Below, piece after piece: positions 33,060 to 62,434 of a DNA stretch of 64,000 nucleotides. The notes beneath the pieces were generated by a model. That model made no database searches and was not told the origin of the DNA. It saw only the letters and a program-made list of their open reading frames with translations. Origin of the DNA: Ectobacillus antri (GTDB lineage: Bacteria > Bacillota > Bacilli > Bacillales > Bacillaceae_G); contig NZ_RIAV01000003.1 of the NCBI RefSeq assembly GCF_003852715.1, positions 62,001 to 126,000 on the forward strand, in the 5' to 3' direction. The stretch's first letter is position 1. The number at the start of each line of letters is the position of its first letter. Both the position numbers and the translations under genes were made by a program.

Positions 33060-33119
33060 GAGTCCGTAACCACGATGTTCCGCTGCAGCATAAGACTGGT
33101 AAGAGCATCCGTTTGGAAG
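33060..33119 (+). promoter_or_regulatory. Probable L19 ribosomal protein leader
   Basis: The leader between promoter and rplS can fold with GATG (about 33074) against CATC (about 33108), enclosing a GCTGCAGC self-complementary element. A leader family named L19 leader is known upstream of rplS in low-GC Gram-positives and is thought to bind L19 for feedback control. The match is by position and the GTTCCGCTGCAGCAT stretch as I remember it. Confidence 0.5.
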
Positions 33120-59300: not shown

Positions 59301-60608
59301 GATAAAACGGCATTTGGTTATGTAAAGGGATATGCTTCTGATCATAATTTAACGATGCGTGGTGCGGAAGTGGAGCGTTTGGCAATGGGATGCACCGGCG
59401 TAAAGCGAACGACAGGTCAGCATCCAGGTGGGATTATTGTAGTCCCAGATTACATGGATGTATTTGATTTTACTCCTATTCAGTTTCCAGCAGATGATAC
59501 GTCAGCAGAGTGGAAAACAACACATTTTGATTTTCATTCTATTCATGATAACTTGCTGAAGCTTGATATTCTCGGACATGACGATCCAACAGTAATTCGA
59601 ATGCTGCAGGACCTAAGCGGCATTGATCCGAAAACCATTCCAACTGACGATCCTGAGGTTATGAAAATTTTCTCAGGTACAGATTCTTTAGGGGTAACAG
59701 AAGAGCAAATTAACTGTAAAACTGGAACACTCGGTATTCCAGAGTTTGGAACGAAATTCGTAAGACAAATGCTAGAAGAAACGAAGCCAACTACATTCTC
59801 AGAGCTTGTTCAAATTTCAGGTCTTTCTCACGGAACAGATGTATGGCTTGGAAACGCTAATGAGCTCATTTATAGCGGTACATGTACACTAAGTGAGGTA
59901 ATTGGATGTCGTGACGATATTATGGTCTACTTAATTTATCAAGGGCTTGAACCTTCTTTAGCCTTTAAAATTATGGAATCGGTTCGTAAAGGAAAAGGCG
60001 TACCACCAGAGTGGGAAGAAGAAATGAGAAAGAACAATGTACCAGAATGGTATATTGATTCTTGTAAGAAAATTAAGTACATGTTTCCCAAGGCGCACGC
60101 AGCTGCGTATGTATTAATGGCTGTGCGCATCGCTTATTTTAAAGTGCATTTCCCGCTGTTGTACTACGCAGCGTACTTTACGGTTCGTGCAGATGATTTT
60201 GATGTAGAGGCAATGACAAAGGGATCGGCAGCGATTCGTGCTAATATTGATGAGATTTTACAAAAAGGTTTGGATGCGTCGCCAAAAGAGAAGAGCTTGT
60301 TGACAGTACTTGAGATGGCACTTGAAATGTGCGAGCGCGGCTTCTCCTTTAGTAAGGTGGATTTATATCGCTCTAGCGCAACAGATTTTATCATCGATGG
60401 TATGTCGTTAATACCGCCGTTTAATGCAATTGATGGATTGGGAACGAACGCGGCAATTAATATTGTAAATGCACGTGAACAAGGTGAATTTCTTTCTAAA
60501 GAAGACCTGCAGCAACGAGCAAAAGTATCTAAAACCATCATCAGTTACTTAGATACTCTCGGGTGCTTAGAATCCTTACCAGATCAAAATCAACTTTCCT
60601 TGTTCTAA
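56313..60608 (+). CDS. polC: DNA polymerase III alpha subunit, PolC type
   Basis: PolC is the replicative polymerase of low-GC Gram-positives, with built-in proofreading. The 1431-aa protein has an N-terminal domain and OB fold (to ~330), the first half of the PHP domain at [12 protein letters not shown] (~333), and an inserted DnaQ-like exonuclease starting [12 protein letters not shown] (~418). The second PHP half follows, then a zinc module [10 protein letters not shown]...CPNCG (~905-936) and the polymerase core with [18 protein letters not shown] near 959. GTG at 56313 follows AGAGGAGGAGCGA; a longer frame from 56274 runs through the proS terminator. The arrangement is diagnostic of Firmicutes. 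Confidence 0.96.
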
Positions 60609-60619
60609 ATCAAAACGCT

Positions 60620-60648
60620 TTGCAAAATATAGCCAAGTATGCTATAGT
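60620..60648 (+). promoter_or_regulatory. Strong sigma-A promoter for the rimP-nusA-infB operon
   Basis: TTGCAA (60620-60625), a 17-base spacer and TATAGT (60643-60648) with an extended TGC just before the -10. The leader to rimP would be about 208 nt long. Confidence 0.75.
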
Positions 60649-60684
60649 AATAAACGGGTAATTCAGGTCGTGCATATTATTACG

Positions 60685-60710
60685 GAAAGAGTGGGGAAAC
60701 CCGCTCTTTC
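60685..60710 (+). other. GAAA-tetraloop hairpin in the rimP leader
   Basis: GAAAGAGTGGG (60685-60695) pairs over 11 bp (one wobble) with CCCGCTCTTTC (60700-60710) around a GNRA-type GAAA loop. No U tract follows, so it is a structural element rather than a terminator. Confidence 0.7.
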
Positions 60711-60770
60711 GTGTTATTATCGCCTGATTTTTCGTATAAGGAAGCTGTTGCTTGCTATACATAATTGACT

Positions 60771-60794
60771 ATAAGTGTTACTGATTTTGGTAAT
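60771..60794 (+). other. Foldback in the rimP leader before the attenuator
   Basis: AGTGTTAC (about 60774) can pair with GTAATACT (about 60790) around an 8-base loop with one wobble. It may alternate with or precede the downstream terminator. Confidence 0.4.
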
Positions 60795-60806
60795 ACTAAG
60801 GCAAAT

Positions 60807-60835
60807 CACCCTGCTTTCATGCAGGGGCTTTTGTT
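60807..60835 (+). terminator. Intrinsic terminator inside the rimP leader (attenuator)
   Basis: CCCTGC (60809-60814) pairs with GCAGGG (60821-60826), followed by GCTTTTGTT. It is 28 bases before rimP and downstream of the strong promoter, so transcripts must pass it to reach nusA and infB. The imperfect U tract suggests a regulated, partial terminator. Confidence 0.7.
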
Positions 60836-60862
60836 ATCGTACAGTTAGGAAGGAGGCAGCTC

Positions 60863-61330
60863 ATGAGCAAAGTTACAGAAATCGTGGAAGAGCTGGCAAA
60901 ACCGATTATTGCGGAATTAAACTTAGAGCTTGTGGATGTAGAATACGTCAAAGAAGGAAAAGACTGGTTTTTACGCGTGTTCATTGACTCAGAAGCGGGT
61001 GTGGACATTGAGGAATGCGCAACTGTCAGCGAACGTTTAAGCGAGGCGCTCGATGCCGCAGATCCGATTCCGGATTTATATTTCCTTGATGTTTCTTCAC
61101 CAGGAGCGGAACGCCCGCTGAAAAAAGAGCAGGATTTTCAAAAGGCGATAGGGAAACAAATAGCTATTAAGACATATGCGCCAATTGACGGAGAAAAGCA
61201 GTTTGAAGGAAAGCTACTTTCTTATGACGGTACAACCGTTACATTAGCCATGATTATAAAAACAAGAAAAAAAGAAATTCAAATTCCAATGGAAAAGGTT
61301 GCAAGCGCCAGACTTGCAGTTACGTTTTAA
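60863..61330 (+). CDS. rimP: Ribosome maturation factor RimP
   Basis: RimP (YlxS) assists 30S maturation. The 155-aa product has an N-terminal alpha/beta domain with [20 protein letters not shown] and [17 protein letters not shown], and a C-terminal SH3-like domain ending ARLAVTF. GGAAGGAGGCAGCTC is an ideal ribosome binding site. It opens the nusA operon as in other bacteria. Confidence 0.96.
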
Positions 61331-61345
61331 AAGAGGGGGATCTTA

Positions 61346-62434
61346 ATGAGCACTGAACTGTTGGATGCTTTGCTCGTATTAGAAAAAGAAAAGGGCATCA
61401 GCAAAGATATTATTATTGAAGCAATTGAGGCAGCATTAATTTCTGCATATAAACGCAACTTCAACCAAGCACAAAATGTGCGTGTAAGTTTCAATCCGGA
61501 AGTAGGATCTATTAAAGTTTTTGCAAGAAAAGATGTAGTTGAGAGTGTATTTGATCCGCGCCTTGAAATTTCAGAAGAAGAAGCACGTTTAATTCATCCA
61601 AATTATCAAGAGGGCGATGTTGTTGAGCTTGAAGTAACACCAAAGGACTTTGGACGTATCGCTGCACAAACAGCTAAACAAGTTGTAACGCAACGTGTGC
61701 GCGAAGCTGAGCGCGGTGTTATTTATTCCGAATTTATTGACCGCGAAGAAGACATTATGGTCGGTATTGTACAGCGTCAAGATGCGCGCTTTATTTATGT
61801 CAGCCTGGGAAAAGTGGAAGCATTGTTGCCAATTGGTGAGCAGATGCCAAACGAACAGTATAAACCGCATGATCGCATCCGTGTATTTTTGACAAAAGTA
61901 GAAAAAACAACAAAAGGTCCACAAATTTTCGTGTCTCGCACGCATCCTGGCTTATTAAAGCGCTTGTTCGAGCTAGAGGTTCCTGAAATTTATGACGGAA
62001 CAGTAGAAATTCGCTCTGTAGCACGTGAAGCTGGAGACCGCTCCAAAATTTCCGTATACTCAGAGAATCCGGATGTAGATCCAGTTGGCTCCTGTGTTGG
62101 ACCAAAAGGACAGCGTGTTCAAAGCATCGTCAACGAACTAAAAGGTGAAAAAATTGATATTGTTCGTTGGTCTAACGACCCTGTAGAATACGTAGCAAAC
62201 GCACTTAGTCCTTCACAAGTGATAAAGGTATTAGTAAATGAAGATGATAAAGCTACAACAGTTATTGTGCCGGATCATCAACTGTCTTTGGCGATTGGAA
62301 AAAGAGGACAAAATGCGCGTTTGGCAGCTAAGCTGACAGGTTGGAAAATTGACATTAAAAGCGAGTCTGACGCAAAAAAGGCTGGCATCTTAGAAGAATC
62401 ATACCAATTTGAAGCAGATGCGTTTGAGGAGTGA
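61346..62434 (+). CDS. nusA: Transcription elongation/termination factor NusA
   Basis: NusA slows RNA polymerase at pauses and stimulates intrinsic termination in Bacilli. The 362-aa protein has the N-terminal polymerase-binding domain, an S1 domain (about 130-200; [20 protein letters not shown]) and two KH domains ([16 protein letters not shown] and [19 protein letters not shown]). It lacks the extra C-terminal acidic repeats of E. coli NusA. AAAGAGGGGGATC precedes the ATG. If the rimP leader terminator responds to NusA, it would give feedback control. Confidence 0.97.

Follow-up and report, generated by a model that had tools for sequence, protein, structure and literature searches.

The region between polC and rimP in Ectobacillus antri raises the question of whether the operon encoding NusA is controlled by termination within its own leader and, if so, at which of the hairpins found there. 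NusA tunes termination at many sites, which makes its own control loop central. A preliminary description of the window (the whole stretch of 64,000 nt that was analyzed, to which all positions below refer, with the leader elements, rimP and nusA lying on the + strand) had proposed an attenuator-like leader made up of a promoter, an 11-bp hairpin capped by GAAA, a foldback and a true intrinsic terminator, the last being the suggested target of NusA. All of these elements were recovered by sequence inspection and folding, and they stand between polC and rimP in the order promoter, first hairpin (T1), foldback, second hairpin (T2).

The operon's first gene, rimP (ylxS, 60863-61330), was identified as an ORF whose product scores above the Pfam cut-off for RimP_N, and it is the only gene here confirmed through Pfam. 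The upstream gene ending at 60608, which we take to be polC, and the downstream genes, presumably nusA (61346-62434, the presumed feedback regulator), two small genes and infB, follow the order of the ORF list and were named from operon order, giving the composition rimP-nusA-ylxR-rplGB-infB in a source genome of 3.49 Mb. A sigma-A type promoter (60620..60648) combines TTGCAA (60620-60625) and TATAGT (60643-60648) across 17 nt with a TGn extension, and would place the transcription start near 60655. Over 700 nt the promoter scan gave two overlapping matches where shuffles gave 1.6 +/- 1.3, which is not significant alone; most leaders of the window's family (f1) show the same promoter by eye. 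This family comprises 19 genomes, 13 of them from one genus, and includes Priestia taiwanensis (L005 = L051) and Gottfriedia species (L009 = L054, L013 = L062). The promoter (about 60619-60648) lies upstream of both hairpins and not downstream of the terminator, as the proposed attenuator presupposed, and a Shine-Dalgarno sequence GGAGG (60852..60856) precedes rimP.

The 186-nt leader has a predicted fold of -66.5 kcal/mol (z = -5.3), with none of 200 shuffles equally good, and the surrounding 700 nt contain three terminator-like sites against 0.7 +/- 0.8 in shuffles, the third lying inside rimP. Searched against Rfam, the leader gave no match at the gathering score (the three hits that fall in this region, with E 1.5-9.3, are far below it), and the rimP leaders of ten related loci gave none at E <= 0.1. 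The sole Rfam gathering-score match in the window is a Ribosomal protein L19 leader (RF00556) at 33072-33111. Sporulating B. subtilis is reported to make sRNAs from the polC-ylxS intergenic region under the control of sigma G and sigma K, and terminated leader RNAs may possibly be among them.

T1 (60685..60710) is formed by GAAAGAGUGGG and CCCGCUCUUUC around a GAAA loop, with 11 pairs including one G-U, at -18.2 kcal/mol, and its core is the conserved hairpin of rimP leaders (GAGUGGG/CCC[A/G]CUC). We examined 117 leaders selected by RimP protein (80 named loci, the best 30 of 180 class genomes and the 19 family f1 genomes, with duplicates removed), and 115 of them bear the motif GAG(T/C)(G/A)GG-loop-CC(C/T)(A/G)CTC; the two others, from Kurthia (L126) and Enterococcus (L130), have variant hairpins. 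T1 lies 30-40 nt after the best -10-like hexamer in 113 of these 115 leaders. The motif was also present in 57/60 additional class-wide leaders chosen for spread over families (55/58 once the two repeats L178 = L127 and L227 = L158 are set aside), the remaining three carrying GAGTGAG.../...CTCACTC followed by five T, and in 30/30 phylum-level loci (28 outside the class), which were taken for their best RimP scores and not as a random draw. One of the latter has the form AAGTGGG/CCCACTT, with the outer pair changed. The pattern itself fixes GAG, GG, CC and CTC, so the invariance of those letters is partly by construction and is truly measured by the pattern's misses, 2/117 and 3/60. Twelve class genomes with weaker RimP matches were inspected by eye: the GAGTGGG hairpin is present in five, G(A/G)GGCG...CGCCTC in four (family f72) and another GGG/CCC hairpin in each of two, while no such hairpin was seen in L262. 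Streptococcus-like genomes (the four L263-L266) carry this G(A/G)GGCG...CGCCTC form close to the start, in place of T1.

With a covariance model derived from class sequences, at least 79 of the 114 phylum genomes that bear RimP gave a same-strand match lying 46-248 nt ahead of the RimP match. This is a lower bound, since 150 matches were listed and six of the 35 misses (G559, G474, G517, G514, G556, G580) show the hairpin in phylum-level leaders. Among the matches listed, the median distance was 95 nt and the leader match was the genome's best in 76 of the 91 RimP-bearing genomes with any such match; in the source genome, T1 ranks best of four. We would like to note that the tally of 222/299 from the T1-pattern search includes rRNA matches and is not a leader count. 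Furthermore, 26 of the 30 loci chosen by the T1 pattern stand within the sets of 143, 198 and 179 leaders and none among the 117; the 198 leaders amount to 189 distinct 120-nt stretches, and L073 (80 nt upstream) was left out.

The T1 stem is genuine. Across 38 distinct sequences its positions pair in 97.4% of cells, against 38-66% for slid versions of the structure; five of ten pairs are changed on both sides (1.6 in shuffles), in 12 cells (1.9 in shuffles), and further pair types show no excess in the same sequences (8 vs 7.7). In the genus Gottfriedia (L007-L019), T1 has become GAGCAGG/CCTGCTC through compensating changes, and its 5' arm there resembles the 3' arm of T2, GCAGGG. The loop is unconstrained, being GAAA in 36/115 leaders and otherwise GCAA, GGCAA, GTCGCAC or many others. 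Because the loop varies, the GNRA cap in the window is one option of many and the stem is the part that is kept, and for the same reason mimicry of 23S rRNA was dismissed: GAATGGGGAAACCCACTG and similar sequences have many matches per genome at two mismatches, which we assign to rRNA, and the shared GAAA was taken as chance. The sequence CGCUCUUUC bears some resemblance to boxA. Two further pairings were considered as general features and rejected, namely an outer stem around T1 (own against swapped partners, z -1.7 over 116 leaders and -1.8 over 127) and a duplex between the T1 tail and the region around the start (z -0.3). In the window itself, an outer stem extending T1 (UCAGG...CCUGA, 60663..60727) is predicted at -16.6 kcal/mol. 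By eye, ACTC(T) directly upstream of T1 complements (A)GAGT of its 5' arm in several genera (L052, L058, L086, L088, L122), a pairing that could possibly serve as a small antiterminator.

T1 also scores as terminator-like, so the leader contains two candidate terminators. Its U-tract is interrupted (UUUCGUGUUAUUA, 60707..60719), and the first four letters are paired within the full 11-bp stem, which thereby takes up the UUU and leaves a weak residual tail, GTGTTATT; the tract TTTCGTGTTATT satisfies a rule of five T in eight only marginally. Tails tabulated for 115 leaders show the same design, with UUU or UUUU past the seven-pair core, mostly C, G or A next, and then U again (TTTCGTGTTG, TTTCTTATTA, TTTTCTGTTG). 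Counterparts of T1 in Enterococcus durans (L130) and in class genomes L177, L194 and L208 end in five T. Distal interruptions of the U-tract have been described for NusG-dependent terminators, which are akin to NusA-dependent ones, and by sequence the interrupted tracts seen here would be compatible with NusG as much as with NusA.

T2, a second predicted intrinsic terminator (60809..60835; CCCUGC/GCAGGG followed by GCUUUUGUU), was found by terminator scan, folding and comparison. Its hairpin, CCCUGC-UUUCAU-GCAGGG (60809-60826), is predicted at -10.9 kcal/mol and is followed by the tail GCTTTTGTT. The terminator that the preliminary description placed before rimP is present in the sequence as one of two candidates. 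A second terminator between T1 and rimP was found in 57/198 leaders, by a criterion that missed those of L023 and L076 (shown by stem comparison) and picked another hairpin in L005; the 5' arm is C-rich in 52 of the 57, and stems of the CC(T)TGC/GCA(A)GGG type are common to 49 leaders from several families. By either criterion, 42/172 RimP-selected leaders with T1 have a second terminator, 19 of these 42 being family f1, and in the other 130 T1 is present and a second terminator was not found. None was found in the leaders examined from Cytobacillus, Neobacillus, Mesobacillus, Rossellomorea, Sporosarcina, Planococcus and Listeria. In L033-L039, T1 and rimP are separated by 203-265 nt, where neither criterion found a second terminator.

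Leaders of this kind have been described. The rimP-leader of Naville and Gautheret (2010, PMC2965389) is a hairpin with a G-rich and then a C-rich arm, followed by a T-stretch, with NusA suggested as its regulator. T1 agrees with it in standing upstream of rimP-nusA-infB, in its conserved GGG...CCC arms with the G-rich arm at the 5' side, in its short hairpin and conserved stem sequence, in a general form without a visible antiterminator and possibly in a T-rich tail, the tract of T1 being interrupted; an antiterminator by alternative folding is proposed there for tandem gammaproteobacterial leaders. Unlike the leaders in that account, which as far as it describes them have no larger conserved element and lie 4-130 nt from the gene, the leader studied here has a start-proximal box in many relatives (below), a second terminator that recurs among relatives with the arms of its stem in the opposite polarity and, in this family, with the box moved before it, and a T1 that is 152 nt from rimP. 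T2 lies 27-36 nt from rimP, inside the published range, yet its 5' arm is C-rich. In B. subtilis, autoregulation of NusA by leader attenuation is covered in a review (PMC12288461, citing Mondal 2016), which agrees with what the preliminary description had put forward; the operon is the same, and the kind of leader termination would be the same here. The rimP leader of S. agalactiae (PMC4448216) yields a short transcript for which NusA feedback was proposed. It resembles what is proposed for the present leader in ending early, at an intrinsic terminator predicted near the start site, and differs in that this end falls 31 nt after the start, and the hairpin of the streptococcus-like genomes L263-L266 differs in sequence.

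With a probability of roughly two in three, we read the leader of ~207 nt as a tandem attenuator in which NusA raises termination at T1 and T2 and so feeds back on its own operon. From a start near 60655, RNA polymerase would have transcribed about 60 nt on reaching T1 and about 180 nt on reaching T2, and at either site a fraction of the polymerases would terminate; NusA made from the operon would raise termination, and high NusA would then mean less read-through into the operon. T1 would be the ancestral, phylum-wide terminator of rimP leaders with a weak, interrupted U-tract, and T2 an extra terminator of some Bacillales. Control would be exerted by a factor and not by a ligand, and an antiterminator fold would be unnecessary. 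A weak, factor-tuned terminator is the best reading of T1 in this organism because of its interrupted tail and the published B. subtilis, rimP-leader and S. agalactiae reports. NusA feedback on the leader terminator, already published for B. subtilis, probably operates here. The preliminary description was right to see an attenuator-type leader before rimP-nusA; the terminator it chose as the target of NusA is, however, the less conserved one, and the hairpin whose role it left unclear is conserved best of all and agrees with the rimP-leader hairpin already described. The roles of T1 and T2 should be reversed, or at least shared.

Nevertheless, the near-invariant sequence of the T1 stem exceeds what a terminator needs, and NusA-stimulated termination alone does not explain it. 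This conservation past structural need, together with the interrupted U-tract and the 130/172 leaders in which T1 occurs without a detected second terminator, favors a different account, in which T1 in Bacillaceae is a binding site for a ribosomal protein or one encoded in the operon (RimP, YlxR, the L7Ae-like protein or the RNA-binding domains of NusA) or a stabilizing 5' hairpin, and T2, where present, attenuates. We consider this unlikely, as those same 130 leaders have no other attenuating element that we found, the counterparts in L130, L177, L194 and L208 have five-T tails, and the published short transcript of S. agalactiae stops near the start. A riboswitch-like switch between T1 and T2, with their 5' arms pairing as an antiterminator, is suggested by the complementarity of the arms (GUGGGG/CCCUGC with two wobbles, and GCAGGG/CCCUGC in Gottfriedia) and by the C-rich 5' arms of 52/57 second terminators. 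We rejected it on energy and hold it to be very improbable: the one forced pairing tried was ~18 kcal/mol worse (-35.9 vs -53.7), T1 forms first, and T1 is so nearly invariant that covariation is not demonstrable. That the hairpins merely block read-through from polC, with constitutive and unregulated termination, is equally improbable, for although both could stop polC transcripts too, the promoter lies upstream of both (60619-60648) and its distance to T1 is kept at 30-40 nt in 113/115 leaders.

The tandem attenuator proposed above is accompanied by a further conserved element, a box that in the window precedes T2 (TTGGTAATACTAAG, 60787..60800) and in many other Bacilli lies near the transcription start, before T1. 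In general form (TTGGWAATACTAAG), it precedes T1 in between one third and one half of the leaders outside the family and T2 in the 19 family f1 genomes. Within 48 nt upstream of T1, a 12-nt version (TGGWAATACTAA) with at most one mismatch occurs in 60/179 non-family leaders against 0.2 expected from shuffles (94 vs 3.1 at two mismatches, 108 vs 22.4 at three); with repeats and pattern-selected loci removed, the counts are 55/146 at one mismatch and 80/146 at two. By eye, the box in these leaders directly follows the -10 box, at or near the RNA 5' end, and was not seen in the phylum-level leaders. In family f1, by contrast, it was found upstream of T1 in 0/19 leaders at three mismatches within 48 nt (a wider span gave one match, at -60 in L005) and downstream of T1 in 18/19 at one mismatch (expectation per leader, 0.002) and 19/19 at two, always 9-11 nt ahead of the T2 stem; outside the family, only two of the 179 leaders have it downstream of T1 at one mismatch and six at two. 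In the source genome, the rimP leader is the sole place with an exact match to the 14-mer, and six further places match at one mismatch against five for a reversed control. Since the 19 genomes are related and 13 are of one genus, the relocation is probably a single evolutionary event seen many times.

The foldback of the preliminary description, AGUGUUACU/GGUAAUACU (about 60774..60797, -8.3 kcal/mol), is this box pairing with sequence upstream of it. It is predicted in the window, but the same pairing was obtained in just 3/12 folded family f1 leaders (L001-L003, those closest to the window), with the box pairing partly and differently in some others; because it is predicted in these three only, the foldback does not explain why the box is retained. 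The box as a mini-hairpin was rejected as too weak (z 2.8, against mononucleotide shuffles only). The box as a second promoter was rejected too, since by eye family f1 has no hexamer resembling a -10 box at a suitable distance. The box bears some resemblance to the 16S 530 loop. The passages found in the literature by searches directed at the leaders mentioned nothing on it, and we regard the start-proximal box and its position before T2 in family f1 as new here. We put forward, tentatively and as a doubtful proposal, that the box (UUGGWAAUACUAAG) might be a signal in the nascent RNA, read by the RNA-binding domains of NusA or by another factor and acting on the next terminator, and that in family f1 it would have moved to T2 together with the control point, while T1 remained as a stop that does not depend on the box.

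The rimP leader of this organism is thus a further case of a known type of attenuator, with a rearrangement of the box that is specific to its family. The T1 stem is near-invariant across the relatives examined, beyond what ordinary termination needs, and something may read it. With the box before T2 and not before T1, family f1 provides a natural experiment in which the box, T1 and T2 are separated.
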